The position numbers were made by a program, and so were the translations under genes. Under the pieces are notes generated by a model. It made no database searches. It was not told where the DNA came from and worked only from the letters and a program-made list of their open reading frames with translations. Below, one piece after another: positions 22,064 through 48,547 of a stretch of 64,000 nt of DNA; the stretch's first letter is position 1; the number at the start of each line of letters is the position of its first letter. Source of the stretch: Rhodopseudomonas palustris (GTDB taxonomy: Bacteria > Pseudomonadota > Alphaproteobacteria > Rhizobiales > Xanthobacteraceae); assembly GCF_013415845.1 (NCBI RefSeq), contig NZ_CP058907.1, forward strand, positions 4,402,001-4,466,000, given 5' to 3'.

Positions 22064-25000
22064 GTGATGAAGGCTGAAAGTGAATTCGCCGAACTTGCAG
22101 CTGACAGTGCGAGTTCGAGTGCGCAAGACCAAACCGTAAAGATCGAAGCCAATCTGGCTGAGAAATTCACCTTCGCCTCGCATCAGAATTCGATTCCCGT
22201 CCTCCGCGCGGTTGCGATCAGCAACGCGAGCCAAGAGCCGCTAGAGAGGCTGCGTCTGGAGCTGGTTTCTAGCCCCAAATTTCTGCGGCCAAAGACCTGG
22301 ACGATCGACAGGATTTTCGCGGGCGACCGACATACGCTCAGCGACCGACGCGTGGATCTGGATCCCTCTTATCTGGCCGGCCTTGATGAAGCCGAGGCAG
22401 GTGACATCACCTTGCGGCTGCTGCAGGCAGATACCCTCATTGCTGAGGTCGTCCGTCCAGTGCGCCTGCTGGCCCGTGATGAATGGGGCGGCGTGTCTGA
22501 CATGGCACAGCTCCTTCCGGCGTTTGTGATGCCGAACGACCCGACAATTCACAGGGTGCTGCGATCGGCAGCCGAACGCCTTGCCTCGCATGGCCACTCA
22601 TCGGCCCTGGACGGCTACCAGAGCAACGATCCGAAGCGCGCCTACATGCTCGCGGCAGCAGTCTATTCGGCGATCGCGGCACTGGGACTGCACTACGCCG
22701 AGCCGCCTGCCAGTTTCGAGAAGCGCGGGCAGAAAGTGCGCGGACCGAGCAAACTGATCCAAGACCAGCTCGGGACTTGCCTTGACGTTACGCTTCTGTT
22801 CGCTGCGGCCCTAGAGGCCGTCGGTTTGAATCCTGTCACCGTCTTGCTCGACGGACATGCGTTTGTCGGTGTGTGGCTCGTTAAGCGCACCCTGCCGAAA
22901 ACCATCGAAGACGATGTTAGCGAACTCCGCAAGGCAATCGCTGCCCGCGAGTTTATCGTGTTCGAAACGACCGGGGTCACGCACCGACCTGCGATGACGT
23001 TCGAACAAGCCAGGAAAATCGGCGAAGACAAACTCAAGGAAGAAGCGCTGCAGCCCTTCGTGGCCGCAGTCGACGTGGCGCGCTCGCGCTCGTCCGGCAT
23101 CTTGCCATTGGCATCCCACACGCCGAGGACGGAGGCGGTGGTCGATGAGGAGGAGACGTCCGCCGAACTCCCTCTGCCCCCCGAACCAGACATTCTCTCG
23201 CCGGCCGACCAAATCGACGAGAAGCCGACCACGCCGGAGGGACGTATCGAGCGCTGGCGATCTCGGCTGCTCGATCTATCGCTCCGCAACCGCCTGCTGA
23301 ATTTTTCCGAGGGCAAACGGGCGATCCCCTTTGTATGCCCCGATGTCGCCTATCTCGAAGATCGTCTGGCCGAGGGAGCTTCGATCAAGATCATTTCGCT
23401 GCCCCAACAGAATCCATTGGGCGATCGAGACGCCTCCCTGCATCGCGATCGGCGCGGCGACGACCTACATCGGACGTTCGCGGCTGAAGCGTTGAAGCGA
23501 GATGAACTCTCCTCCAAGCTCGAGCCCAAGGATCTGTCGGCCAGGCTGACCGATTTGTATCGTCAGGCTAAGAATGACCTGACCGAAGGTGGTACCAATA
23601 CGCTTTATCTCGCTGTCGGAATCCTGAAATGGAAGAAGACGCCGGCCGACGAGAGAACCTATCGCGCACCGCTACTGTTGCTGCCGGTGAAGCTCGAACG
23701 CTCGGGCGCGTCCGATCGCTTCCGCCTGAAATTTCACGAAGACGAGCCACAGCTGAATGCGACCTTGCTGCAATTCTTGAAGCGGGATTTCGACGTCTCG
23801 CTTCCGGACTTTCGCGAAGGCCTTCCGAAGGACGACAAAGGCATCGATGTTTCGAAGGTGCTCGACAGCGTGCGCCGCACCGTGCGCGACGTCCCGGGCT
23901 TCGAAGTCGTCGACGACATTGCGCTGTCGACCTTCTCTTTCGCCAAATATCTAATGTGGAAGGATCTGACCGACCGCGTCGCGGCGCTGCGGCAGAATCG
24001 TGTCGTTAAACACCTGATCGATAATCCCGATCGGATACTCGACGGCGCTGACCAGCCATTTCCGGATGCAGCCGATATAGATCGGAAGTACGCCTCGGCC
24101 GATCTGGTGTTGCCACTTTCGGCGGACTCGTCTCAGATCGCCGCATGCCTCGCTGCCGCGCAGGGGCGGGACTTCGTCATCATCGGTCCGCCCGGCACCG
24201 GCAAGAGCCAAACGATCGCCAATATGATCGCGATGTGTCTGGCCGCAGGCAAGACCGTGCTGTTCGTCGCAGAGAAGACGGCGGCTCTCGACGTCGTGTA
24301 TCGGCGTTTGCGGGAGCACCGGCTTGGCGACCACTGCCTTGAGCTGCATTCCAGCAAAGCGGATCGAAAGCACTTCTTCGGCCAATTGAAGAACTCGTGG
24401 GAGAAGCGCGCGGCCAATCGCGAAACCCAATGGGTCACGCTCAATCATCGGCTGCAGATCCGGCGCGACGAGCTGAACGCTTACGTCGATGCGCTGCATC
24501 GCCAGTCACCGAATGGACTGACACCGTACGCCGCGATCGGCATCGCGACTCTCGGACAAGACGACTATGCGCCGAAGTTCGAGTGGACAAGCAAGGACAC
24601 CCACGACGCGAAGGCCTACGCGGAACTGCAAGACCTAGCCGGCGACCTCGGTCGGACTTATGCGGCCGTGACTGTCCGTCCCGTGCTCCGTCTGCTGCAT
24701 GTTGAAGAATGGACCAATGCCTGGCAGGAAAAGCTGCTGACGGCAGCACGGGCTCTCGCGCGGGCCGCCACTGCAGCGCGTACGGCGCTAGCCGGGATCA
24801 GTCCCCGCCTCGGGCTCGATGGCTTACAGGACTGCCGTGCCGACGGCTTGAAATACTTCGCCGACCTCGCGCAGGATCTGATCGCAACCTCCGGCGAAAA
24901 TCACACGATCATTCTGCATCGCGACTTCGCCGCGCTGGCCCGCGCACTGTCCGAGCTTGAAACAGCGATTTCTGCCTACCGCCATAGTGAAAGCGGCCTG

Positions 25001-28000
25001 TCGGTCCGCTACGCGCCCGACACCGTGGCACGCATTCCGATCGCCGAGATCGAGCGCGACTGGCATGAAGCGAAGGCAGCCATGTGGCCGAAGTCCTGGC
25101 TCGCGACGCGGCGCGTGAAACGGCTGCTCGGATCATACGCCGGAACCAAGACGACAGACCCCGCCACCGACATTGAACTGCTCCGGGATCTGCAAGCAAA
25201 GCTTCAATCGATCCAAAGCAATGCGATCGCCCAAGCCCCGCTGGCCTTCAACGGCCTCGATACCGACTGCAAGGCGCTGACAGACCATCTGGAAAAGGCG
25301 GAACGGCTACGGACCTCGCTGGTTCAGCTCGGTGAGTTTGCCGGCGATGTGCAAAAGGTCGCGGCCAGCATCGCCGCCAACCTGAAGGGACAGGTCAACC
25401 AGCCGCAGCTTTCGGCCGCCAGGGACTATCTGGCCCGCTACCAGGAATTGAAGGCTTGCATCGCCAACTTCGAAGAAGCGGCCGGTCTGCCGCTTGACCG
25501 CAACGACGATGACTTTCTCAGCACCGTCATTCGGCAGATGGACGAGATAGAACATGCCCGCACGTTATTCCGCGATTGGTCATCGTGGTGCTTGGTCCGC
25601 AAGCGCGCCATCGCACGCGGACTGGCTCCTCTGGTGCAAGCTATTGAGACCGGCGCCGTTCCGACCGACCGCAGCGTGTCGGCATTCAGGCTTGGCTACG
25701 CGCGCTGGTGGCTGCCGCTTGCGATCGACGATAGCGCAGAGCTCCGGAACTTCCGCCGCTTTGCACACGAAAATGCGGTCGAGGATTTCAACGCGGTCGA
25801 TGACCTCGTCCGCGCCCACGCCAGCGATAAGATCGTCAGTGCTTTGGCGCATGGTCTTCCGTCCTCCGAGTCGGTGCCTCGGCAATCCGAACTGGGGCAG
25901 CTGCGGCATCAGATGGGCCTGAAGCGGCCAAGCCGTTCGATCCGCGAGATGATCTCCGCGATGCCGGAAAGTTTCGGCAAGCTCGCGCCGTGCGTGCTGA
26001 TGTCACCGCTGTCGATCGCGCAGTATCTTCCACCCGATCAAGCGCTGTTCGACATCGTGATTTTCGACGAGGCATCACAGATCGCCACCTGGGACGCGGT
26101 CGGCGCGATCGCGCGCGGCCGGCAGACGATCATCGTGGGCGATCCCAAGCAATTGCCGCCGACGAGCTTCTTCGGTCGGGTCGACGATCAAGATGACAGC
26201 GTGCCTGAGTTCGATCGGGATCTCGAGAGTATCCTCGATGAAACGCGGGCTTCAGGGCTCCCTGTTCGGCACCTGCGGTGGCACTACCGAAGCCGCCATG
26301 AGTCCCTCATCGCGTTCTCCAACTGGCACTACTACGACAATCATCTCGTCACTTTCCCGAGCCCGGTGACGGAGGATCGCGCAGTCTCGCTGAACCTTGT
26401 TCCGACCGGAATCTACGATCGTGGCAAGAGCCGCACTAATCGTGAAGAAGCACGCGCAATCGTCACCGACATCCGAATCAAGCTGAAGAGCTGGCTCGGC
26501 TTGCCGGAGGCCGAGCGCCCAACTGTCGGTGTCATCACGTTCAATGCCCAGCAGCAGGCGTTGATTCAGGACCTGCTCGACGAGGTGTGCCGTGCGGATC
26601 CCGACCTTGAATGGTTCTTCTCCGACGACCGGATCGAGCCGGTGATCGTGAAGAATCTCGAGAACATCCAAGGCGATGAGCGCGACGTGATCTACTTCTC
26701 GATCACCTTCTGCCGCGATGCCGCCGGGAAGCTGCCGATGAATTTCGGCGCCATCAACAACGACGGCGGCGAACGGCGACTGAACGTGGCGGTCACGCGC
26801 GCCCGAAGTGAACTGAAAGTGTTCTCGGGCATCCGGGCCGACGACATCGATCTCGACCGCAGCAAAGCAATGGGCGTGCGTCATCTGAAGGCGTTTCTCG
26901 ACTACGCGGCGCGTGGCGCGATCGCACTGCCCGCGCAGGACGAGGGATCGCTCGGAGAGACCGAGTCTCCATTCGAGCAGGCAGTGGCGATCGCGCTCGA
27001 AGCCCGCGGTTGGCAGGTGGTGACACAGGTCGGTGTATCCGGCTTCCGGATCGATCTTGGCATACGCCACCCCGATCATGCGGGGCTGTATCTCGCCGGC
27101 ATCGAATGCGACGGCGCCACTTACCATAGTTCCGCGACGGCCCGGGACCGCGACAAGGTGCGCGAGCAGGTGCTGCGTGGTTTGGGCTGGAATATCCTGC
27201 GGATCTGGTCGACGGACTGGTGGTTCAACGCGACCGACGCGATCGAGCGTATCCATACAGCCTTGAACGATTTGTTGGCGGTAAGCCGCGCCGACCTAGG
27301 CAATACTGAATACGCCGGTGAATCGGCGGACGGCAGCACCGGCAGCTTTGCGGACGAGATCGACCTCTCGGTCGATATCTTCGACACACAACAGTCGGAG
27401 GGGCAGAAGAAAGACGGTGAGCCCCCCTGCGCCGCTGACGACGAAGCGGAGCCTTCGCCTTCGCCCGCGCAGCAGGTGAGCGAAGCTCGGATTGCGTCGG
27501 TCGGTCATGCCGCTAAAGAAAGCCGCACAACTTTCCGCATTGTCGATCTCTCCGGCTTCAAGACGGAGGCGGATCGCTTCTTCGAGTTTTCGTACCGTCC
27601 GACGATCGAGGCACTGATCGATGCCGTGATGACCGCCGAAGCTCCGGTGAGGGAGGACGCCCTCGCTCAGCGCATCGCACGGGCGCATGGCTGGCTGCGG
27701 ACGGGCGCGCGCATTCGCGATCAGGTGTCACGTCACCTTGAGAACTACGAGCAGACGAACGAAACGCCCGGCTCGTTCCTGTGGCTGCCGGGCACGGTGA
27801 CTGAACGCCTTACTTTTCGCAGGCCTCACGGCCCCGATCACCGCCGACCTCTGGCTGAAATCGCTCTCGCGGAATTGGTCGACTTTATCCTGGCGCACAC
27901 GCATGCGCTCGACGAGGACGACCCGCCCCTGGTCTATGCCCGACTTCTGGATATCGAAAGACTGGCGGCTCCATCGCGGGAGCGGCTTCAGGAGGCGATC

Positions 28001-28027
28001 GAGAAAGCCCTAACACTGAAGGACTGA
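22064..28027 (+). CDS. DUF4011 / superfamily 1 helicase / Vsr-like nuclease / DUF3320 defence-type protein
   Basis: 1987 residues. An N-terminal region with a transglutaminase-like core comes first, with Cys239 in GTCLDVTLLFAAALEA and His265 in LLDGHAFVGVWL. The DUF4011 signature RWRSRLLDLSLRNRLLNF lies near residues 396-413. Helicase Walker A is GPPGTGKSQT (708-717), Walker B is IVIFDEASQ (F1334-D1335-E1336), and late motifs include WHYRSRHESL, GDERDVIYFS and NVAVTRAR. From about 1635 a small Vsr/MTES_1575-type nuclease follows (SPFEQAVAIALEARGW, FRIDLGIRHPD, GIECDGATYH), then DUF3320 (about 1824-1905). This resembles the single-gene DUF4011-helicase-Vsr anti-phage systems (Hhe). GTG 22064 or ATG 22067 could be the start. 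Confidence 0.88.
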   Translation: MMKAESEFAELAADSASSSAQDQTVKIEANLAEKFTFASHQNSIPVLRAVAISNASQEPLERLRLELVSSPKFLRPKTWTIDRIFAGDRHTLSDRRVDLDPSYLAGLDEAEAGDITLRLLQADTLIAEVVRPVRLLARDEWGGVSDMAQLLPAFVMPNDPTIHRVLRSAAERLASHGHSSALDGYQSNDPKRAYMLAAAVYSAIAALGLHYAEPPASFEKRGQKVRGPSKLIQDQLGTCLDVTLLFAAALEAVGLNPVTVLLDGHAFVGVWLVKRTLPKTIEDDVSELRKAIAAREFIVFETTGVTHRPAMTFEQARKIGEDKLKEEALQPFVAAVDVARSRSSGILPLASHTPRTEAVVDEEETSAELPLPPEPDILSPADQIDEKPTTPEGRIERWRSRLLDLSLRNRLLNFSEGKRAIPFVCPDVAYLEDRLAEGASIKIISLPQQNPLGDRDASLHRDRRGDDLHRTFAAEALKRDELSSKLEPKDLSARLTDLYRQAKNDLTEGGTNTLYLAVGILKWKKTPADERTYRAPLLLLPVKLERSGASDRFRLKFHEDEPQLNATLLQFLKRDFDVSLPDFREGLPKDDKGIDVSKVLDSVRRTVRDVPGFEVVDDIALSTFSFAKYLMWKDLTDRVAALRQNRVVKHLIDNPDRILDGADQPFPDAADIDRKYASADLVLPLSADSSQIAACLAAAQGRDFVIIGPPGTGKSQTIANMIAMCLAAGKTVLFVAEKTAALDVVYRRLREHRLGDHCLELHSSKADRKHFFGQLKNSWEKRAANRETQWVTLNHRLQIRRDELNAYVDALHRQSPNGLTPYAAIGIATLGQDDYAPKFEWTSKDTHDAKAYAELQDLAGDLGRTYAAVTVRPVLRLLHVEEWTNAWQEKLLTAARALARAATAARTALAGISPRLGLDGLQDCRADGLKYFADLAQDLIATSGENHTIILHRDFAALARALSELETAISAYRHSESGLSVRYAPDTVARIPIAEIERDWHEAKAAMWPKSWLATRRVKRLLGSYAGTKTTDPATDIELLRDLQAKLQSIQSNAIAQAPLAFNGLDTDCKALTDHLEKAERLRTSLVQLGEFAGDVQKVAASIAANLKGQVNQPQLSAARDYLARYQELKACIANFEEAAGLPLDRNDDDFLSTVIRQMDEIEHARTLFRDWSSWCLVRKRAIARGLAPLVQAIETGAVPTDRSVSAFRLGYARWWLPLAIDDSAELRNFRRFAHENAVEDFNAVDDLVRAHASDKIVSALAHGLPSSESVPRQSELGQLRHQMGLKRPSRSIREMISAMPESFGKLAPCVLMSPLSIAQYLPPDQALFDIVIFDEASQIATWDAVGAIARGRQTIIVGDPKQLPPTSFFGRVDDQDDSVPEFDRDLESILDETRASGLPVRHLRWHYRSRHESLIAFSNWHYYDNHLVTFPSPVTEDRAVSLNLVPTGIYDRGKSRTNREEARAIVTDIRIKLKSWLGLPEAERPTVGVITFNAQQQALIQDLLDEVCRADPDLEWFFSDDRIEPVIVKNLENIQGDERDVIYFSITFCRDAAGKLPMNFGAINNDGGERRLNVAVTRARSELKVFSGIRADDIDLDRSKAMGVRHLKAFLDYAARGAIALPAQDEGSLGETESPFEQAVAIALEARGWQVVTQVGVSGFRIDLGIRHPDHAGLYLAGIECDGATYHSSATARDRDKVREQVLRGLGWNILRIWSTDWWFNATDAIERIHTALNDLLAVSRADLGNTEYAGESADGSTGSFADEIDLSVDIFDTQQSEGQKKDGEPPCAADDEAEPSPSPAQQVSEARIASVGHAAKESRTTFRIVDLSGFKTEADRFFEFSYRPTIEALIDAVMTAEAPVREDALAQRIARAHGWLRTGARIRDQVSRHLENYEQTNETPGSFLWLPGTVTERLTFRRPHGPDHRRPLAEIALAELVDFILAHTHALDEDDPPLVYARLLDIERLAAPSRERLQEAIEKALTLKD

Positions 28028-29071: not shown

Positions 29072-29386
29072 TGTCACGCCTCCGGGACGCGCCAGTGACT
29101 CACTTACACCACGGGTTGCACGGCAGCGGACAACAACTGATGAACTGCAAAGCAGCATTTCGGCCGCGTGGTTAATATACAATAAAGTTGGTGGCAGCAG
29201 CGCATCACCAACGGCGGCACATCGTCCGCGAGAAGCTCGACGTTAGATTCAATTACCAGCGATCAGATAATCGGCTCATGTCACCGATCCTTGATACCCC
29301 CAGGATCGACGGTGTGAACCAGTTCACAGCACTGCGTGCCGTCTCGAACTACAGTGAGCGAAGTAGCTGGTTCGGGAGCGAGCATC
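29072..29386. other. Divergent intergenic region
   Basis: About 315 bp between the divergent diguanylate cyclase and small membrane-protein genes. It must hold promoters for both. The only clear element is the CRP-type palindrome at 29313-29328; no ORF with a good ribosome site was seen. Confidence 0.5.
29313..29328. promoter_or_regulatory. Perfect CRP-type operator (TGTGA-N6-TCACA)
   Basis: The 16-mer TGTGAACCAGTTCACA is symmetrical apart from its two central bases and matches the canonical CRP consensus exactly. It lies 58 bases before the ATG of the membrane-protein gene at 29387. A Crp/Fnr-family regulator is encoded just beyond that gene (29885-30598). That protein keeps the Arg-Glu pair of the CRP recognition helix, so it is a plausible ligand for this site. 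Confidence 0.6.
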
Positions 29387-29845
29387 ATGGATACGATCAG
29401 GCATTTGACGCAACTCATCGAGCGGATCGGTCTTGCCATGGCAGGGCTTGCTTGCGGCACATTCGTCTCGGCTTCGGTCGGTCATGCCGACATCGGCGTC
29501 CTTCAGTCCGAATGGGCGTCGCTCGCGATCGTGCTGGCAGGCGGGGTCGGCTTTGCCGCCGCGAGCGGACTTCAGTACGGCGAGAGACGACGCTCGGGAA
29601 TCGATCCGGTTTGTCTGCTGTGCGCAACCGGCACGTTTCTGACCTCGGTCATGGCTTTGACATCGGTCGCCGTGCTCGTCATAGGCGCAGACCCTCCGGC
29701 CGTTTGGCTTTCCCTGCTTGCCGCCAGCTGGATCGGCGGAGTGGTCCTGCAGATCGCGGCGGCGGGGGTGGCGCGCTATGGTGAGGTTCGACCGCCTCGG
29801 CGGTCGAACCTTGTGGCGCCCAGTCAGCTTCGCGACGCCGCCTGA
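29387..29845 (+). CDS. Hypothetical small integral membrane protein
   Basis: About 152 residues, family not recognised. Hydrophobic segments are visible near residues 14-30, 45-60, 77-102 and 108-128, suggesting four membrane helices. A Pro-Arg-rich cytoplasmic-looking tail (VRPPRRSNL) follows. The start at 29387 has GGGAG a few bases upstream. The CRP-type palindrome upstream suggests global regulation. It is convergent with the Crp/Fnr regulator gene. Function unknown. Confidence 0.6.
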   Translation: MDTIRHLTQLIERIGLAMAGLACGTFVSASVGHADIGVLQSEWASLAIVLAGGVGFAAASGLQYGERRRSGIDPVCLLCATGTFLTSVMALTSVAVLVIGADPPAVWLSLLAASWIGGVVLQIAAAGVARYGEVRPPRRSNLVAPSQLRDAA

Positions 29846-29884
29846 GGCCCGCCGGCTTCTCGTCCAAGAGACGACAAGCAACAA

Positions 29885-30598
29885 TCAGCCTTCACCCGCA
29901 ACCGCGTGGAGGGCGTCAGGCTGAACGATCTCCAACGTCTGCGGTCCAAGCCTGATCCACCCTTGCGAGGCCCAGCGCGCCAGCAGCTTGTTGACGCTTT
30001 CGCGCGACATGCCGGCCATCTCGCTGACCTGCTGCTGCGTCAGCTGGAGACGTAGCGGAGCCCGATCGGTGTCACGCTCTGCCAGCCGCATGATCGTGCC
30101 GGCGAGCCGGGCCGACATCGACTGCAGCATCAACCATTCGACCTGCTGGCTGGTCGCGCGAACCCGCCCACAGAGCAGAACGATGAGCTTCATCATCAGC
30201 TGCGGCTGCGTGTCGATCAGTTCGAAAAGATCTCGCCGCGCGATCGATAGCAGAACGGAGTCGCTGTGGGCGATGGCGTCCGTTGTCCGTGGCAGCCCAT
30301 CCAGCACGGCCACCTCGCCGAAGACCTCGCCACTGCCGATCAGATTGAGCATCGCGGTGCGTCCATCGGTGGAACCCGAGCTCACCCGGATTGCGCCTTC
30401 GACCACGACAAACAGAGCATTCGCGTCGTCTCCCTTGAGGAAGACGGTTTCTCCGCGGCTGAACCTGACGAGACGGGCGGCGCGACAGAGCTGGTCGAGC
30501 GCTTCGGGCGCAAGATCCTGAAACAGCCGTTGGGCACGAACGACATCAGATGTCTTGGTCGACCTGCGGCCCAGGTTCGTTGTCATCGACGTCATCAT
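29885..30598 (-). CDS. Crp/Fnr-family transcriptional regulator
   Basis: 237 residues. The N-terminal cyclic-nucleotide-binding-type beta-roll (about residues 20-140) has GETVFLKGDDANALFVVVEGAIRV and SGEVFGEVAVLDGLPRTTDA, which includes the GE-x6-7-R-T phosphate-binding-cassette pattern. That favours cAMP or a similar ligand. There is no N-terminal cysteine cluster, so it is not an Fnr-type iron-sulfur sensor. The C-terminal HTH is QLTQQQVSEMAGMSRESVNKLL. Its recognition helix keeps the CRP Arg-Glu (RES) but has Lys where E. coli CRP has its third contact Arg. It may act on the TGTGA-N6-TCACA site nearby. Confidence 0.88.
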   Translation of the reverse strand: MMTSMTTNLGRRSTKTSDVVRAQRLFQDLAPEALDQLCRAARLVRFSRGETVFLKGDDANALFVVVEGAIRVSSGSTDGRTAMLNLIGSGEVFGEVAVLDGLPRTTDAIAHSDSVLLSIARRDLFELIDTQPQLMMKLIVLLCGRVRATSQQVEWLMLQSMSARLAGTIMRLAERDTDRAPLRLQLTQQQVSEMAGMSRESVNKLLARWASQGWIRLGPQTLEIVQPDALHAVAGEG

Positions 30599-30681
30599 TC
30601 TCTCGACGGGCCTCGGTCACCAACGAGACGTCAAGCCCGCTCCGCCTAGCACGCCACATCGCGAGGACCGCTCGCCGGCAC

Positions 30682-30708
30682 CAGAGCGGAGCTCTACGCT
30701 CCGCTCTG
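30682..30708. terminator. Perfect 11-bp hairpin downstream of the radical SAM operon
   Basis: CAGAGCGGAGC (30682-30692) and GCTCCGCTCTG (30698-30708) pair perfectly around a 5-base loop. The hairpin lies about 34 bp after the stop of the 178-aa gene (minus strand) and upstream of the Crp/Fnr gene. There is no U-tract on either strand. It could be a transcript-stabilising 3' structure, a factor-dependent stop or an operator rather than a classic intrinsic terminator. Confidence 0.4.
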
Positions 30709-30741
30709 CCATCCAGAATGGTTGTCACAATGCCAGCTGGA

Positions 30742-31278
30742 TCACCCCAGCCGATCGGCGCAGCGGACCGGCTGATAGATCTGCTGACTATTTGCGGCAC
30801 CGCGCTCACGATCGCGATAGCTCGACAGATCGTGGATCAGACGGGCAAAATCAGAGCCCGCGTGCATCGCATCGTTGAACGTCTGCAGCGCCGCCAGCGT
30901 CCGGAATGCCCAGATCGTGCGGTAGAGGCCACTGCCCTTCTCGCTCGTCGACGAAACGGCGTAGGTCCCGCGATAGGTGATCCCTTCCGGAGTCACATGG
31001 TCGAGTTTCTGCTCATTGGCAATCAGCCATTTCCGAAACTCGTCATGCTTGTTGAACGGAACATCGTAGCCCCATTCGATCACCAAAGCTCCCAGCAAGA
31101 CACTGTCGTTCAGGAGACTCTCGATCTCCTGCTTGCCTTCACCATGCTTGAGCAGATCGCAAAACGGGAAGAATCCACCCGATCGAACCTCCGGCTCGAT
31201 TGCCGCAACGGTCGGGGACACCAGCGTTTCGCCAGCGATCAAACTGGCAGCCAGTCCGGAAGACTCGATGTTGGCCAT
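30742..31278 (-). CDS. Uncharacterised 178-aa protein in a radical SAM/PqqD operon
   Basis: About 178 residues; I do not recognise it. The first 40 residues are low in charge (SSGLAASLIAGETLVSPTVAA) and end in GGFFPFCDLL. The rest looks globular, with alternating strands and helices (LLGALVIEWGYDVPF, GITYRGTYAVSS, YRTIWAFRTLAALQTFND, FARLIHDLSSYRDRE), somewhat like a dimeric ferredoxin-like barrel. It ends QQIYQPVRCADRLG. ATG 31278 is chosen because AAGGAG lies 7 bases upstream. It starts 2 bp after the PqqD-like stop, so it is translated with the operon. It could be the substrate of the radical SAM enzyme (N-terminal leader-like part, two cysteines) or an accessory enzyme; the sequence does not decide. 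Confidence 0.65.
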   Translation of the reverse strand: MANIESSGLAASLIAGETLVSPTVAAIEPEVRSGGFFPFCDLLKHGEGKQEIESLLNDSVLLGALVIEWGYDVPFNKHDEFRKWLIANEQKLDHVTPEGITYRGTYAVSSTSEKGSGLYRTIWAFRTLAALQTFNDAMHAGSDFARLIHDLSSYRDRERGAANSQQIYQPVRCADRLG

Positions 31279-31280
31279 GA

Positions 31281-31577
31281 TCAATCTCCTTGTTGTGTCA
31301 GTTCGATCAATCCCTGTTCCTGCAATCGTTGAAGTCCAGCTCTGAGGTGATTTCGTGCCTCCTCCTCCGGGTTCTTTGTCGCAACCTGTTCAACGTATTT
31401 TTGCTCGATCTGCTCGGCGGTGCTGCCGTCGCAGAGTTCGAGGATGAACCACGCGTTGAGATTCAGCATGAAGAGCTTCGGCGGATCCGGCCGAAACACT
31501 ACGCAGCTCTTCATTTCCTTAAGTGGTCGCAGTCGGAGGTTTTGGGTGTGGTTGTAACAGCCATTCGGGTAGGACAC
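31281..31577 (-). CDS. PqqD-like RiPP recognition element protein
   Basis: 98 residues if the GTG at 31577 is the start. PqqD-family features are the early strands LRLRPLKEMKSCVVFRP, the LNLNAWFILELCDGSTAEQI core (LN-x3-IxELCDG-T) and a helical C-terminus. PqqD-like proteins bind the leader of a precursor and present it to a partner radical SAM enzyme. The gene overlaps the radical SAM 3' end by 59 bp and has GGAG 9 bases before the GTG. A shorter form from ATG 31514 would lack the first beta strands, so the longer start is preferred. It is not a PQQ locus: no pqqA, B, C or E is present. Confidence 0.82.
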   Translation of the reverse strand: MSYPNGCYNHTQNLRLRPLKEMKSCVVFRPDPPKLFMLNLNAWFILELCDGSTAEQIEQKYVEQVATKNPEEEARNHLRAGLQRLQEQGLIELTQQGD

Positions 31578-32562
31578 GCAGGTCTACTCCCCTGTTCAGC
31601 ACCTTGTCGAACGGATCGGGGGCGTCCCAAGCCCCGTGAAACGCATAGGCCGTCGCACGGCACCCCCCGTGCGAACCCTGGCTGGATGCACAACTCGGAC
31701 AGCTATCCGTAACGCGCCCGGATCTCAGTTCCCGGTAAAGCGGATGCTCCCAGGTCTCCATGAACGAGACCCGCTTGATATTGCCGTAGTTGACGTACTC
31801 GCGCAGATAAGCGCAGCCGATCGAGTCTCCGAATGCATTCACCGCCGCCATCTGCCAGCAAGAATTACCGTCATTCGGATGCCACGACTGCATCAGCTTC
31901 ATGCCGGAAGGCAGGCGAAGCGTATCGAGCGCCGCATGCATCTCGTCCAGGGACAGCGCAAACTCAGCCCAGCGATACTTCATCCGGCCAAGCGGATAAG
32001 GGCGCAAAACGCCGGCAGTTTTGACACCAAGCTCGTCGGCAAGATCGATGTAGCCTTGAAGATCGGCAACGTTCTTCCGGTTGAGGATGCACAGGGTCTG
32101 CACCTCGATGCCGGCCTGCAACATGGATCGGATCCCATCGCAGGCGCGAGCGTGGCTTCCGGACACGCCCGTAATTTCGTCATGCACCTGCGCCCGGGAG
32201 CTGAATAGGTCAACCAGCACGATGCCGACCCGGATGCCCCTCAGGTATCGCGCCGTCTGCGGCGTGATCAGCGTGCCGTTGGTCCGCACCTCCGTAAGAA
32301 AGCGACCCGAGGCCGACGCCAAAAACGGCAGGAAGTCCGGCCGATGAAACGGCTCACCGCCTTCGATGTAGAGATAGATGACGCCGAGTTCGGCAATCTC
32401 ATCCAGAAAGCGTGACCACTCTTCACCGTTCAATTCCGAACCCGCCTTGGCAGGCGAGCAATCGGAATAACAGTGCTGACACGCGAGGTTGCAGGTCTCA
32501 GTAAAACAGATCGAGAGCTTCAGTGGCCTCTCGAGGGCAAATGGATTCTCGATTTGCGCCAT
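31519..32562 (-). CDS. Radical SAM/SPASM-domain peptide- or protein-modifying enzyme
   Basis: 347 residues. The radical SAM cluster motif is C24-x3-C28-x2-C31 (TETCNLACQHC), and IEGGEP (66-71) is the SAM-binding GGE motif. C-terminal SPASM/twitch cysteines are C235, C250, C288, C291 and C301, which should hold one or two auxiliary iron-sulfur clusters. Such enzymes form carbon-carbon or thioether crosslinks, epimerise residues, or mature enzyme subunits. The next gene encodes a PqqD-like leader-binding protein, which supports a ribosomally made substrate. It is divergent from the zinc-ribbon/cyclase gene across about 120 bp. No ribosome site of good quality is visible before its ATG. Confidence 0.88.
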   Translation of the reverse strand: MAQIENPFALERPLKLSICFTETCNLACQHCYSDCSPAKAGSELNGEEWSRFLDEIAELGVIYLYIEGGEPFHRPDFLPFLASASGRFLTEVRTNGTLITPQTARYLRGIRVGIVLVDLFSSRAQVHDEITGVSGSHARACDGIRSMLQAGIEVQTLCILNRKNVADLQGYIDLADELGVKTAGVLRPYPLGRMKYRWAEFALSLDEMHAALDTLRLPSGMKLMQSWHPNDGNSCWQMAAVNAFGDSIGCAYLREYVNYGNIKRVSFMETWEHPLYRELRSGRVTDSCPSCASSQGSHGGCRATAYAFHGAWDAPDPFDKVLNRGVDLRVLPEWLLQPHPKPPTATT

Positions 32563-32684
32563 GGCCGTGAACCATTTCGCTGTGAGATGAACGAATCTAA
32601 GCCCCTGTCGTCCAATGTTCGATCGTTAGAGATGGGAGTGAGCAAATCATACTATCGTCTAAATAGCAACGGACACTAATCAGT

Positions 32685-35600
32685 ATGCGTTGCTCTGCCT
32701 GCGGCTTGTCGGCCCCGACGGAGGCGAGCTTCTGCCCACGATGTGGCGCAAAGCTCAGCCTGCATTGCCAGAGTTGCGGATTCCGAAGCCCACTCGGGTC
32801 GCATTTCTGTGGCGGCTGCGGCGCTTCACTGGTCGAGGCTTCTGGGCCGACCGTCACCAGCGCGTCAGGAGGTATTGCCGCCGATCGCGATCAGCGGCCC
32901 GAGCGGCGTCAGGTGACGATTCTGTTCGTCGATATGATCGGCTCGACCGAAATGTCGGTCCGTCTCGACGAAGAAGAATTCAAGGACATCATCTATCGCT
33001 ACCGCGATATCTGCGCGAACGCGGTACGTCAGTTCGATGGCTGCATCGTCCGCTATATCGGCGACGGCATCCTTGTGTGTTTCGGTTTTCCCTTCGCCCA
33101 TGAGGACGACCCGATCCGAGCCGCACGCGCCGGCCTTGCACTTCTCGATAATCTGCAACGCCTCAATTCCGAGCAAGAGACGAAGGCGATCCAGGTGCGG
33201 ATGGGCATGCACACCGGCATCGTCATCGCGGGCGACCTCAGATCCTCGGACACTTTCGAGGCAATGGGGATTCTCGGCGAGACCCCCAATATCGCCTCGA
33301 GGGTGCAGAACCTCGCCGCCCCCGATCGTCTGGTGATCACCCTGGAAACCGCGCAACTCCTCGGCGAACGGTTCGACCTTATCGATCTCGGATTGCAGCA
33401 GGCGCGCGGCGTCGATGGTCCGTTGCATCTGTTCGAGGTCGCCGGGGAGCGGACTGAGGCGACCAGGGAACGGCCTCCTGCCAGCCACAAGATGATCGGT
33501 CGTCAGCAGGAACTGGCGCTGTTGCAGGACCGCTTCTTCCGCGCACAGGACGGTGAAGGCCAGGTGGTGCAGATCACCGCCGAAGCCGGCGCCGGCAAGA
33601 CGAGGCTGGTGCGGGAATTCAAGGCACGCCTCGATCCAGCGGCGTTTCTGCCGATGACCTGCTACTGCTCGGCATACAGCCGCTCCAGCGCATTCTATCC
33701 GATCATCGAGATGATACGTCGCGTCGTGAAGCCTGATGGCGACGCAGACGCCGAGGCAATGTCGGCAAACCTGCAGCGCTCCTTCGTTGGCCTGGAAACG
33801 ATCACTCCGGAGGCCACGGCGCTGGTTGCCGAGCTGCTCGAGTTGCCGGTATCCCCCGCGATCAAGGACATTCCGCCGGCCCGGCGGCGCGAGCTTCTGC
33901 TTGAGGTGCTGACGCAGTGGGTACTGAGACAGTCCGAGGACGTTCCTGTCATCCTCGTCGTCGAGGATCTGCATTGGGCAGACGCTTCCACCACCACCCT
34001 GCTTCGGCACATCGTGGGGCGGCTGTCGAATTGGCGGGTGATGGCCATTTTCACGTTCCGGCCCGAATTGACGGCCGAATGGCTGCTGGGATCGCAAGTG
34101 ACAAGGCTGGGTCTGCGCCGCCTCTCCAAGAACGAGGCAAGAGCGCTGACCGCACAGATTGCCGACGCCTCGACCATGACGGCAGAGATCATCGCGTCGA
34201 TCGTCGCCAAAACCGGCGGGATTCCGTTGTTCATCGAAGAGCTGACCAAAGCAGTTCTCGCCGGGGCTTCTTCCGCCGATCATGATCCGGCGCGATTGAC
34301 GGCACTGGTCGACAGCATTCCATCCACGCTCCGGGGGTCGTTGGCCGCCAGACTCGACCGCCTTCAGATCGCAAAGCCGCTGGCGCAGGTCGCCGCGACG
34401 TTGGGCCGGACCTTCGACAGCAAAGTGTTGGCGGCCGTCACCGGAGAGAGTCAGCCCGCGCTCCGCGCGCAGCTCGATGAATTGCTGCGTCAGGGCTTCA
34501 TCCATCAGCACGGAACGCAGGTTCAAGCCAAATACTCGTTCAAGCACGCACTGATTCAGGAAGCTGCCTACGACTCGCTGCTCAAGAGCGAGCGGCGATC
34601 GATGCATCGCAGGATCGCGGAAGTCATCTCCACGCAATTCGCCGACGTCGTCGCGGCGACTCCCGAGGTCCTGGCCGAACATTATGCGGCCGCAGAGCTC
34701 GCGGAATTGGCGATCGCGCATTGGGAAGCGGCCGGCAACAAGGCTGCCGAGCGTTCGGCCAATGTCGAGGCCGCCAGCCATTTCGCAAACGCCCTCGCGG
34801 TCCTTCGCCGAATGCCCGACACGACCGAGCGGGCGCGTCGGGAGTTATCGCTCGAGCTGCAGCGCGGCTCGCAACTTCTCGCCATCAAGGGGAATGCCGC
34901 CCCTCAGGTGGAGGAGGTGTTCACCCGCGCCTACCAACTCAGCTGGAGACTGGGCGAGCACCGGCTGCTGTTCAGGGCCCTCTACGGGCTGATGATGTTC
35001 TTCATCGTCCGAGGTCAGCTTGAGAAGGCGCATCAATGCGGGGTGCGCTTGATCGAACAGGCAGAACGCGCCGGCGACGATGGCCTTCAATTGCAGGCCA
35101 AGCGGCCGCTTGGCCTGACGCAGTTTTACCTCGGCCAGTTCAGCAGCGCGAAGGAGACCTTGAAACAGGCGCTCCAGCTATACGACCCCGATCGGCATCA
35201 TCACCATCGGTTCGAATATGGCTCCGACCCGGCCGTCCTCGCGCAATGCAATCTCGCCTGGACCGAGTGGTTCGTCGGCTTACCAGATACTGCGATCGCA
35301 GACAGCGCACAGGCGATGGCGCGGGCGATCCAGCTCAACCATCCGCACAGCCTCGGATTTGCCCTCAGCTTCGAAGCCTCGATCAGGCAGAGCCGTGGTG
35401 AACCGAAGGAAGCGCTCCAGGCAGCCGAGCAGGCGATTCAGATCGGTCAGAGCTACCGCTTCCCCTACTGGAGCGCCTGGGGACGGATCTTGCGCGGCTG
35501 GGCCATCGGCAGGCTGGACCGTCCCGCATCAGGCGCGGCCGAAATCAAAGCCGGGCTGGAAGATTATCGCGCCACAGGCGCCGAGCTGATCCGGCCCTAC

Positions 35601-36002
35601 GGCCTGATGTTGCTCGCAGAGACGCTCGGTACCGATGGCGCGCTCGAGGATGCCTTGGCCATGCTGAACGAAGCGCTCGACATCACCGAGACCAACAGGA
35701 CGCTGTTTTGCGGGCCGGAGCTGTACCGGCTTCGCGGATCGTTGTTGCTGGCGGCGGATCCACACGACGATGCAGGCGACGAGAATCTCAAGAAGGCGGT
35801 CGATCTGGCACACGAGCTCGGGTCGCCAATGCTGGAATTGCGGGCCCTCGCCAGTCTCGTCTCGGCTTCACCGCACCGAGGCAGCTCGGCTCCGCTCCAG
35901 CGGCTCGAGCGGCTGCGCGATGCCATGACCGAAGGCTTCGCCACAGCCGATCTGGCCGAGGTCGCGCGCGTCATCAAACTCGCGGCAACGCATCGACGCT
36001 AG
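32685..36002 (+). CDS. Double zinc ribbon - class III cyclase - AAA/STAND ATPase - TPR-like signalling protein
   Basis: 1105 residues. Two N-terminal zinc ribbons (CSACG...CPRCG and CQSCG...CGGCG, residues 3-46) are followed by a class III nucleotide cyclase domain. That domain has the first metal Asp in FVDMIGSTE (D83), the second in IGDGILVCFG (D127), and the transition-state region GETPNIASRVQNLA. Next is an AAA/STAND ATPase with Walker A AEAGAGKT (K305) and Walker B-like VILVVEDLHWAD. A long alpha-helical TPR-like C-terminus follows. It probably makes cAMP in response to an unknown signal. The architecture is frequent in rhizobial relatives. Being divergent from the radical SAM operon and near a Crp-type regulator is suggestive only. 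Confidence 0.88.
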   Translation: MRCSACGLSAPTEASFCPRCGAKLSLHCQSCGFRSPLGSHFCGGCGASLVEASGPTVTSASGGIAADRDQRPERRQVTILFVDMIGSTEMSVRLDEEEFKDIIYRYRDICANAVRQFDGCIVRYIGDGILVCFGFPFAHEDDPIRAARAGLALLDNLQRLNSEQETKAIQVRMGMHTGIVIAGDLRSSDTFEAMGILGETPNIASRVQNLAAPDRLVITLETAQLLGERFDLIDLGLQQARGVDGPLHLFEVAGERTEATRERPPASHKMIGRQQELALLQDRFFRAQDGEGQVVQITAEAGAGKTRLVREFKARLDPAAFLPMTCYCSAYSRSSAFYPIIEMIRRVVKPDGDADAEAMSANLQRSFVGLETITPEATALVAELLELPVSPAIKDIPPARRRELLLEVLTQWVLRQSEDVPVILVVEDLHWADASTTTLLRHIVGRLSNWRVMAIFTFRPELTAEWLLGSQVTRLGLRRLSKNEARALTAQIADASTMTAEIIASIVAKTGGIPLFIEELTKAVLAGASSADHDPARLTALVDSIPSTLRGSLAARLDRLQIAKPLAQVAATLGRTFDSKVLAAVTGESQPALRAQLDELLRQGFIHQHGTQVQAKYSFKHALIQEAAYDSLLKSERRSMHRRIAEVISTQFADVVAATPEVLAEHYAAAELAELAIAHWEAAGNKAAERSANVEAASHFANALAVLRRMPDTTERARRELSLELQRGSQLLAIKGNAAPQVEEVFTRAYQLSWRLGEHRLLFRALYGLMMFFIVRGQLEKAHQCGVRLIEQAERAGDDGLQLQAKRPLGLTQFYLGQFSSAKETLKQALQLYDPDRHHHHRFEYGSDPAVLAQCNLAWTEWFVGLPDTAIADSAQAMARAIQLNHPHSLGFALSFEASIRQSRGEPKEALQAAEQAIQIGQSYRFPYWSAWGRILRGWAIGRLDRPASGAAEIKAGLEDYRATGAELIRPYGLMLLAETLGTDGALEDALAMLNEALDITETNRTLFCGPELYRLRGSLLLAADPHDDAGDENLKKAVDLAHELGSPMLELRALASLVSASPHRGSSAPLQRLERLRDAMTEGFATADLAEVARVIKLAATHRR

Positions 36003-36214
36003 ACGATCGGGGGCTGAAGGCGTCACCGGGGCGCCTTCGCGCGCGTTGGAACCGCGATGAGGAACCAATGGCGCCGCGACCAGTATTGGCCTAAAAGAGC
36101 CCGACCTCCCATTATCGGCGGCTTGTGCGACCGTGCATCGTCCAAGTCCCGCCGGTCGACCGATCCGGTCCCGGGATTTCCCATTCGGCGTGATCGCCCA
36201 GAAGGTTGTCGTTC

Positions 36215-46072: not shown

Positions 46073-46441
46073 CGCCGTTCGATCGACCGGTGCATGTCGC
46101 CGCATCCCACCGATGGATTGCTGCGAACCGGCAATCTTCGCGCGTGTCAACCTATCAGAACGGCACACCGTTAACGACAACTAACCAATGATGCGACGAA
46201 TTAGTAACCCAGGTCGGAATCCGGCACGATCTCGCAAGGTCATGTCTCAAAATTGCAACTCGCGAACAATAATTCTGCGCCCCGCGACGACCACAATGAC
46301 AAACACTCCGTTCCGAACTTAGCAATCGACCATTGAGGATCGACCCAGGCCCACGAAACAAGAACGCCTGCATTCAGCGCCAGCCATGCGGCGAGCGTTG
46401 GATCCTCCAGAGCAATGCAAGGGCATCATTTCGGGGGCGGC
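46073..46441. other. Intergenic region upstream of the subtilase autotransporter
   Basis: About 370 bp; no gene or RNA was recognised. It is visibly more AT-rich around 46160-46320 than its surroundings and should carry the protease promoter. Confidence 0.4.
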
Positions 46442-48547
46442 ATGAGTAATTCGGAAGCGATCGACAACACGACCGCAAAGCTGCGTCTTGCGCAGAGCAG
46501 TTCTCTGCTCGCGCTCGCGCTCTTGATCGGCTCTGCGCCGGCGCAGGCGGCGGACACCGATTGGGGCTGGCTGGCGATCGGCGCCCCCGCCGCCAAGGCA
46601 CAGGGGTGGACCGGCAAGGGTGTGGTGGTCGGCGTCGTCGATACCGGCATCGACTTCAGTCACCCCGCATTGAGCGGCCGCGCCTTCGACTACAACTATG
46701 GCTCATTCGTCGCCGGGAGCAATCATCCTCATGCGACACATGTCGCCGGCATCATCGGTGCCACGGACATCAACCGGGGCATGGAGGGCGTAGCCCCCGA
46801 TGTTCGGTTCTCATCGTTGAAGATCTTCACGGGAGCCGGCGGATCCTATCTGGGCGACGCGGCCGTCGCGGACGCCTACGACGGCGCCATCGGGAGCGGC
46901 GTCCGCATCTTCAATAATTCATGGGGGTCGTCGGACTCGATCGCAAATTTCACGTCGCGCGAAGAGCTGGTGGCTCACGAGCCCCTGCTGGTCGGCGCGT
47001 TCACGCGCGCCGTCAACGCCGATGCGGTCCTGGTATGGTCGACCGGCAATGACGGTCGCAGTCAGCCGAGCTGGCAGGCCGCCGCGCCCTACTACATTCA
47101 GGAGCTCAAAGCTAACTGGATTGCGGTGACGTCGGTGGGGGAGAATGGAACGATCGCTTCCTACGCCAACGCCTGCGGCGTCGCCAAGGCGTGGTGCCTC
47201 GCCGCCCCGGGGGGAGATTTCAATCCCGGCATTTATTCGACCATCCCCGGAAACGACTACGGCTACATGTCCGGAACCTCGATGGCGGCGCCCTACGTGA
47301 CCGGCGCGACAGCGATCGCAAGGCAGATGTTCCCCAAGGCGAGCGGGGCGCAGCTCGCCCAGATCGTGCTGCAAACCAGCCGTGACATCGGCGCACCCGG
47401 CATTGATGACGTTTATGGCTGGGGCCTGCTTGCGGTCGATAACATCGTCGACACGATCAACTCGCGTGGCGCGGCGTTGTTCGCGAGTGCAGCCTGGGGC
47501 CGCTTCACCACCCTGTCGGCGATCGGCAACACGGTGCTCGACCGCATCTCCGATCTGCGCAACGGCCGGGGTGACGTCGTCACGGCTCCGCTCGCCTTCG
47601 CCGGGCAAAACGGTGTGTTCAGCCAGAGCGGCTCGAACCCGCGCAACGCCTATGCGGCGGATCTGGCGGCGGCCCCACAGCCCTCCCCGCTCGGCTTCGG
47701 CAATGTCTGGGCTCGCGGTCTGGCCGGGCGGGCCACATTGTCGGGCGGCGCGAGCTCGCCGCAGACGACGGCCGACATCAGTGGCGGCCTGCTCGGCTTT
47801 GACTTGGTCAACAATCAGAACCTGCTGGTCGGCGTCGCGGGCGGCGGATCGAATACCAATCTCACCGCGTCGGGCATCAGCGACAAGGCCGGTGCCCAGG
47901 CTTGGCATGTGCTCGGCTATGCGGCCGCGATGTACGGACCGGCCTTCGTCAACGTCGCCGGCGGTTGGAACAGCTTCGATCAGTCCTATCAGCGTCGTGT
48001 CATCCCCGGCACCGCGGGCACCGTGTTCGCGTCGACGATCAGCGCGGCGCAGTCGTCGTCCACCGACGTGGCCTATTTCTTCCAGGGACGTGGCGGCTGG
48101 ACTTTCCAGACTGAGGTCGGCCGGATCGAGCCTTACGTGCATGGCGCGACCCGCAACCAGAGCTTCGGCGGCTTCAGTGAAACCAACGCCAGCATCTTCA
48201 GTCTGTCGGTGCCCTCGGCGAGTTTATCGGAAGCCGAATATGGTGCAGGCGTGCGCTGGGCCTGCGCGCCGATCAAGACGGTGGACCAACGCGTCGCGGT
48301 CGCACCGACCATCGACCTCGCCTATGTCCGCTTCACCAACGATGGCCCGATCCAGGTCGAGACCAATTTGTTGGGCACCTCCGTGGTGGGCCAGACCGCA
48401 GCACTCGGTGCCGATGCGATCCGCGTCGCTGCCGGGCTGTCGCTGACGAGTTTGGCGGGAATTTCCGGCAGCTTCGGCTATACCGGCACCGTCCGCGACG
48501 CCGCGACCGCCCACACCGTCTCCGGCGGTCTGAGCATCAAGTTCTGA
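46442..48547 (+). CDS. Autotransporter subtilisin-like (S8) serine protease
   Basis: About 701 residues. The N-terminus has a signal-peptide-like segment (LLALALLIGSAPAQAA), followed by an S8 peptidase domain with catalytic D67 (VVDTGIDFSH), H100 (HATHVAGI) and S280 (MSGTSMAAPY). From about residue 420 the sequence becomes Gly/Ala/Ser-rich beta-strand-like (GFGNVWARGLAGRA...) and ends SGGLSIKF with a terminal Phe, typical of a type V autotransporter barrel. The protease should be exposed or released at the cell surface. ATG 46442 has a GGGGGCGG-like site upstream; an in-frame start at 46415 is possible. Confidence 0.88.
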   Translation: MSNSEAIDNTTAKLRLAQSSSLLALALLIGSAPAQAADTDWGWLAIGAPAAKAQGWTGKGVVVGVVDTGIDFSHPALSGRAFDYNYGSFVAGSNHPHATHVAGIIGATDINRGMEGVAPDVRFSSLKIFTGAGGSYLGDAAVADAYDGAIGSGVRIFNNSWGSSDSIANFTSREELVAHEPLLVGAFTRAVNADAVLVWSTGNDGRSQPSWQAAAPYYIQELKANWIAVTSVGENGTIASYANACGVAKAWCLAAPGGDFNPGIYSTIPGNDYGYMSGTSMAAPYVTGATAIARQMFPKASGAQLAQIVLQTSRDIGAPGIDDVYGWGLLAVDNIVDTINSRGAALFASAAWGRFTTLSAIGNTVLDRISDLRNGRGDVVTAPLAFAGQNGVFSQSGSNPRNAYAADLAAAPQPSPLGFGNVWARGLAGRATLSGGASSPQTTADISGGLLGFDLVNNQNLLVGVAGGGSNTNLTASGISDKAGAQAWHVLGYAAAMYGPAFVNVAGGWNSFDQSYQRRVIPGTAGTVFASTISAAQSSSTDVAYFFQGRGGWTFQTEVGRIEPYVHGATRNQSFGGFSETNASIFSLSVPSASLSEAEYGAGVRWACAPIKTVDQRVAVAPTIDLAYVRFTNDGPIQVETNLLGTSVVGQTAALGADAIRVAAGLSLTSLAGISGSFGYTGTVRDAATAHTVSGGLSIKF

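Follow-up and report, generated by a model that had tools for sequence, protein, structure and literature searches.

The window examined here is a stretch of 64,000 nucleotides of Rhodopseudomonas palustris DNA (contig NZ_CP058907.1), and its subject of interest is a compact cassette of three genes on the minus strand. The first of these encodes a radical S-adenosylmethionine (rSAM) enzyme with a SPASM domain (31519..32562, 347 amino acids). It is followed by the gene of a 98-amino acid PqqD-like RiPP recognition element (RRE, 31281..31577), where RiPP stands for ribosomally synthesized and post-translationally modified peptide, and by the gene of a 178-amino acid protein of precursor type, the proposed substrate (30742..31278). 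The rSAM and PqqD-like genes share a 59 bp overlap and the ATG of the third gene lies 2 bp past the PqqD stop, two features of an earlier note on this DNA with which the coordinates agree. That note viewed the cassette as a candidate RRE/SPASM modification system with the 178-amino acid protein as a possible substrate, a view now backed by the co-occurrence of the genes and by tandem repetition of a motif in relatives of the third protein. The comparison covers 14 loci, the window included, drawn from nine genomes and five public records, of which four are Bradyrhizobium loci other than L009 and one is a Microvirga plasmid. L009 and L021 both represent genome G157, which is taken as one genome, and L021 is uncounted.

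The rSAM enzyme scores above the Pfam cut-offs for both Radical_SAM (56.3 bits) and SPASM (30.3 bits). Its CX3CX2C motif is formed by C24, C28 and C31, and the SPASM cysteines are C235, C250, C288, C291 and C301. All of these had been named before; they are present and, with C35, which sits directly behind the CX3CX2C motif and was absent from the earlier list, they make nine cysteines that are invariant in the nine aligned rSAM sequences. The adjoining RRE reaches 38.2 bits with the Pfam PqqD model, above its cut-off, and a PqqD-like RRE adjoins the rSAM gene by similarity in 14/14 loci, the cassette RREs of other genomes being assigned by similarity to P0002 or relatives of P0002. One carrier of the cassette, G525, has 18 PqqD-model matches, far above the other eight genomes scanned.

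The 178-amino acid protein (P0003) lies outside the recognised families, as had been claimed: it has no Pfam family at E ≤ 1, a single chance-level row in NCBIfam, scoring 12.3 bits where the cut-off is 90, and nothing similar by sequence in the PDB at E ≤ 10. An AlphaFold2 model and the relatives of the protein indicate a layout in three parts. A short predicted N-terminal helix (residues 6-16, codons 31231..31263, minus strand; pLDDT, the model's own confidence score, about 50) may serve as a leader. It is followed by a conserved motif, PTVAAIEPEVRSGGFFPFCDLL (residues 22-43, codons 31150..31215, minus strand), a single copy of a unit that is repeated in relatives, and by a predicted dimeric alpha/beta-barrel-like domain (residues 65-168, codons 30775..31086, minus strand). 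In both predicted models the motif region is of low confidence, that is, predicted to be disordered, and the C-terminal domain is folded; residues 22-39 make up the conserved disordered stretch. P22, V31 and R32 of the motif are invariant in the 14 precursors, as are W69, E89, Y102, G104, T105, Y106, T121 and W123 of the barrel domain.

The predicted fold of the C-terminal domain is ABM/NIPSNAP-like, with fold matches including SnoaB and putative ABM monooxygenases. The dimeric alpha/beta barrel of that superfamily is found in the predicted structure, and a Pfam match to it is not found in P0003. A five-repeat relative gave Pfam rows to other families only, all below cut-off, and no Pfam or NCBIfam cut-off was reached by the single- or tandem-motif precursors with a barrel-like domain. 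Membership of a known, unrelated enzyme family, which the earlier note had regarded as contrary to a substrate role, is therefore not seen above any sequence cut-off, and the family likeness is confined to the predicted fold.

The two cysteines of the protein had been put forward as a feature of its modification, and this part of the proposal did not hold. Three of the 14 precursors are without any cysteine and no cysteine column is invariant, so that the conserved substrate cysteines of sactipeptides and QhpC are not found in this set. Because the precursor cysteines are unconserved, a thioether product is unlikely, and thioether chemistry of the sactipeptide or QhpD-like kind was rejected as the general case. 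To judge from the alignment, the cysteines are unlikely to be a general modification site.

In a branch of Hyphomicrobiaceae type the motif occurs in tandem. Among the 104 proteins of this branch (the five-repeat protein and those retrieved with it), 75 have two to six copies; the numbers of proteins with 0, 1, 2, 3, 4, 5 and 6 copies are 14, 15, 13, 19, 23, 15 and 5, respectively. The repeat unit, PxVxxVxxQVRTxxSVPF, recurs at a spacing of about 27-35 residues ahead of the folded domain. In a profile-profile alignment (probability 99.2%, E 1.3e-19), the single motif of the 178-amino acid protein lines up without gaps with the final repeat of relatives that have several copies. The proportions of silent and of amino acid-changing differences (pS/pN) between repeat cores are 0.72/0.04 in L030, 0.56/0.06 in L034 and 0.53/0.13 in L035; in the L030 array the silent sites have diverged and the protein sequence is nearly unchanged. 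The leader/core organisation of a co-inherited ribosomal precursor is thus represented by a disordered conserved motif that is repeated in relatives. P and R are fixed positions of the pattern used for the single-motif family and of that used for the 261 repeats, so their conservation there is built in. Six of 102 single-motif members are without the motif by pattern, namely five truncated fragments and one over-long open reading frame (ORF) of L025 in which the motif lies beyond the residues scanned; P0076 was excluded from A6. One homologue of the repeat branch, P0189, is listed with Pfam PF01642, a mutase family, and may be a fusion or the result of a faulty gene call.

A protein search returned 72 relatives of the 178-amino acid protein, the named ones from Bradyrhizobium, Tardiphaga and Acetobacteraceae, and a profile search returned at least 99, with Mesorhizobium added. 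In genome searches, which score part of the first-look candidates per genome and may miss distant members, the profile of the 178-amino acid protein (E ≤ 1e-3) and the rSAM (E ≤ 1e-60) match the identical five of 391 genomes of the family (G000, G010, G050, G157 and G173); at class level the rSAM (E ≤ 1e-40) is matched in 2/385 genomes (G000 and G525), at order level the precursor profile in 4/297, and the five-repeat relative in 3/103 genomes of one further family. The co-occurrence on which the substrate proposal depended is therefore present at the level of the family. The rSAM, RRE and precursor genes are adjacent in each of the nine matched genomes, and the expected conservation of gene order is borne out in 14/14 loci, even where identity falls to 50% for the rSAM and 22% for the third gene. 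Because this order recurs in all 14 loci, the three-gene arrangement is beyond chance. The distances between rSAM sequences and those between precursors are correlated (r 0.98, with 0/2000 permutations as high), a value that simple co-inheritance is equally able to give. Together, these comparisons of gene content and order show a rare cassette in which a SPASM rSAM, a stand-alone PqqD-like RRE and a tailed barrel-like protein are inherited together. A hidden short precursor was rejected after a screen of the gaps in 7 loci, in which none of 122 small ORFs (about 19-111 codons, leaving out those overlapping known genes by >30%) matched an ORF of another locus at E ≤ 0.01. On the Microvirga plasmid NZ_CP016618.1 (L014 9611-10579), the RRE and precursor genes are missing from the PLSDB gene table, which describes itself as incomplete.

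A subtilase gene adjoins the rSAM gene in 5/14 loci. It sits between the cyclase gene described below and the rSAM gene in L020 and L025, and immediately upstream of the rSAM gene in L030, L034 and L035 (by Pfam for L030, by similarity for L034 and L035). With the L025 subtilase as query, no cassette-type subtilase is found in the window's genome. The same query, which is not of the L030 type, was used in the search for a subtilase partner elsewhere in four of the carrier genomes, and such a partner was rejected there. The window also encodes a 710-amino acid subtilase, autotransporter-like by reading, at 46415-48547, with weak similarity to the cassette subtilases; one of the weak S8 matches obtained with that query lies in it.

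Taken as a whole, the cassette is probably a RiPP-type maturation system that works as follows. The RRE would bind the N-terminal part of the 178-amino acid protein and present V31-R32-S/T33 and the following FPF to the rSAM enzyme, which would install a radical-generated, cysteine-independent modification on a side chain. The floppy front of the protein carries a conserved motif, of which relatives have as many as six copies, and this makes it very probable that the rSAM modifies the tail and that the 178-amino acid protein is its substrate. Repeat-number variation together with purifying selection on a disordered motif is a substrate signature. We infer that it is the motif which is modified or presented, with V31, R32, S/T33 or the following FPF as candidate sites, none of them preferred; relatives with two to six copies would receive one modification per repeat. 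In the repeat branch and two other lineages, the neighbouring subtilase would cut the modified tail, and the barrel domain would anchor the precursor, possibly in dimeric form, or serve as a carrier.

Several observations weigh against this reading. The joint presence of rSAM and precursor is partly a matter of selection, as loci were found via either gene, which leaves adjacency and order unaffected. The Pfam PqqD model (E ≤ 1e-3) picks out the cassette RRE in 4/9 genomes scanned, in three of them above cut-off. The 14 repeat-branch proteins with no copy lack the motif by pattern, several of them having degenerate tails. The repeat profile alone gives 5.5 bits on P0003, above the 99th percentile of shuffles (1.7) and below the best of 2040 shuffles (7.8); 85/102 single-motif family members exceed the 99th percentile and only 14 exceed the best shuffle. 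No subtilase is adjacent in 9/14 loci (the window, the Bradyrhizobium-type loci and Microvirga), and a search with the L025 subtilase turns up S8 matches elsewhere in three genomes, all of them weak (G000, G010 and G157), and no match in G173. Release of a peptide is therefore unsupported in these loci, and where a lineage has no subtilase beside the cassette the tail may remain on the protein.

The main rival starts from that last point and is less likely. Here the end product would be a modified protein, a barrel enzyme or binding protein whose uncut disordered tail bears an rSAM-made crosslink or cofactor, on the model of the gamma subunit of quinohemoprotein amine dehydrogenase once its leader is removed. 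It shares the substrate with the RiPP-type reading and differs in its fate, so that the two overlap and their odds are not exclusive. The absence of an adjacent subtilase from most loci speaks for it, as does the barrel domain, which both models predict with the highest confidence and which holds the eight invariant residues. Conversely, up to six motif copies before one domain are hard to square with a single-site cofactor, and the subtilase neighbours in 5/14 loci count against it. It is improbable that the barrel domain is an ABM-monooxygenase-type tailoring enzyme fused to its own substrate, with the tail modified both by the rSAM and in cis, although the fold matches to SnoaB and putative ABM monooxygenases are in line with it; in plant burpitides, cores and cyclase share one chain. 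That the 178-amino acid protein is a third subunit or chaperone for an unlinked peptide substrate is very unlikely: it does exceed most RiPP precursors in size, but the variation in repeat number, the purifying selection on the disordered motif and the absence of any conserved small ORF from the gaps screened in 7 loci count against it.

Beyond the three genes, a 1105-amino acid protein with double-zinc-ribbon, class III cyclase, AAA_16 and TPR domains is encoded divergently from the rSAM gene (32685..36002, plus strand), and a 237-amino acid Crp-family regulator is encoded downstream of the cassette (29885..30598, minus strand). Both had been described before and both are matched by Pfam. The divergent position of the cyclase gene stands; its treatment as a mere neighbour does not, as a related cyclase/AAA/TPR gene adjoins the cassette on the opposite strand in 11/14 loci. 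By this measure of gene neighbourhood the unit exceeds three genes. The relative on the Microvirga ossetica plasmid NZ_CP016618.1 has 37% identity, and no cyclase match is present in the 19.9-kb stretches of L030, L034 and L035. The window's genome has seven class III cyclase domains. Past the precursor gene, the Bradyrhizobium-type loci have a D-2-hydroxyacid dehydrogenase gene and then a further cyclase gene, whose product has a dCache sensor domain (L006 8607-11727 by Pfam; L007-L010 and L022 counterparts by similarity).

The entire cassette lies in a 7.0-kb block (29145..36171) defined by comparison with four close genus mates, and is found in 2/16 genomes of the genus. In these relatives (L040-L043), a neighbouring helicase is 98-99% identical to that of the window, the GGDEF and helicase genes are directly adjacent, and the cassette is absent; homology ends at about 29144 and restarts at about 36172, with about 185 bp replacing the block. 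Nine other stretches of the genus have no cassette gene beside the helicase and no GGDEF gene, and hence the site is undefined there. Besides the cassette, Crp and cyclase genes, the block holds a 169-amino acid ORF (29336..29845, plus strand), hydrophobic and by reading probably a membrane protein, with no Pfam match at E ≤ 1 and a relative in L023 only among the loci examined. The adjoining region (22064-28027) encodes a 1987-amino acid protein with DUF4011, AAA helicase, MTES_1575 nuclease and DUF3320 domains. Relatives of it stand beside GGDEF in L040 and L042 and are lacking in L023, L041 and L043; a second insert of variable presence thus adjoins the block.

A CRP-type palindrome, TGTGAACCAGTTCACA (29313..29328, plus strand), precedes the 169-amino acid ORF. 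It is the sole zero-mismatch match in the window, and the same site occurs in L023; CRP-type sites with ≤2 mismatches are fewer across the window than chance would give (4 against 15.5). A related Crp gene is near the cassette in 4/14 loci (the window, L023, L020 and L025), and a second perfect palindrome, TGTGACGGGCGTCACA, lies near the Crp gene of L020 (10618-10633). The cyclase-rSAM intergenic alignment (8 loci) has no obvious shared operator. The presence of a cyclase, a Crp gene and a CRP-type site suggests that the cassette is under nucleotide control, in which the cyclase/AAA/TPR protein, via cAMP or a related nucleotide, and Crp would govern expression. A full signalling loop is doubtful; in it, the excised rSAM-modified tail would be the ligand of the cyclase/AAA/TPR sensor and the cyclic nucleotide would activate the cassette's Crp. 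If true, a cyclase would here be reading a signal made by a radical SAM enzyme, a pairing that to our knowledge has no precedent.

Maturation by an RRE and a SPASM enzyme is an already known kind of system, and the cassette is best read as a new RiPP-type family of it. A description was not found in the literature by title and start of abstract, with subscription journals mostly outside the coverage. The cassette would define a coherent, patchily distributed SPASM substrate family whose product is unlikely to be a cysteine thioether, and its natural arrays of one to six copies make the minimal recognition unit testable. We know of few parallels among RiPP systems for a folded barrel-like domain behind the cores or for a dedicated cyclase gene beside the operon, and both raise the question of a signalling or carrier function. 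The C-terminal domain shares its predicted fold with ABM monooxygenases, NIPSNAP proteins and muconolactone isomerase, and the cassette protein differs from these in having no detectable sequence membership and in adding a motif-bearing tail.

Pyrroloquinoline quinone (PQQ) biosynthesis (PqqA/D/E) also pairs a PqqD-like RRE with a SPASM rSAM, and among PDB entries it is PqqE that the rSAM matches best by sequence; membership was rejected on the NCBIfam cut-offs (93.8 against 381.35 bits for PqqE, 14.9 against 46 bits for PqqD). Another PqqD and SPASM domain pair, no more than about 1 kb apart, lies near C1:2.106 Mb of the genome. None of the NCBIfam matches listed for the rSAM (25 of 71) exceeds its own cut-off. 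Mycofactocin was likewise rejected (124.1 bits against the MftC, TIGR03962, cut-off of 265), and 9/11 plasmid matches of the rSAM besides Microvirga are annotated as MftC, at 28-32% identity. In MftA/B/C (PMC3023750), a SPASM rSAM is encoded together with a small partner and a precursor; MftA is a short peptide, whereas the cassette precursor has 178 amino acids. In the QhpC/QhpD/QhpE system (PMC7876137), QhpD forms Cys-to-Asp/Glu thioethers in a protein substrate, QhpC, and the subtilisin-like protease QhpE, which the cassette subtilase recalls, removes its N-terminal leader; the cassette differs in its separate RRE gene and in the lack of cysteines from 3/14 precursors. TvgA/TvgB of Halomonas offers the likeness of a single rSAM, TvgB, acting repeatedly on valine in a repeated precursor motif, and an Arg-Tyr crosslink is mentioned for another system in the same paper (PMC9062424). 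The TVGG repeats of TvgA lie in its C-terminal region, whereas those of the cassette family stand ahead of a folded domain and are accompanied by a stand-alone RRE.
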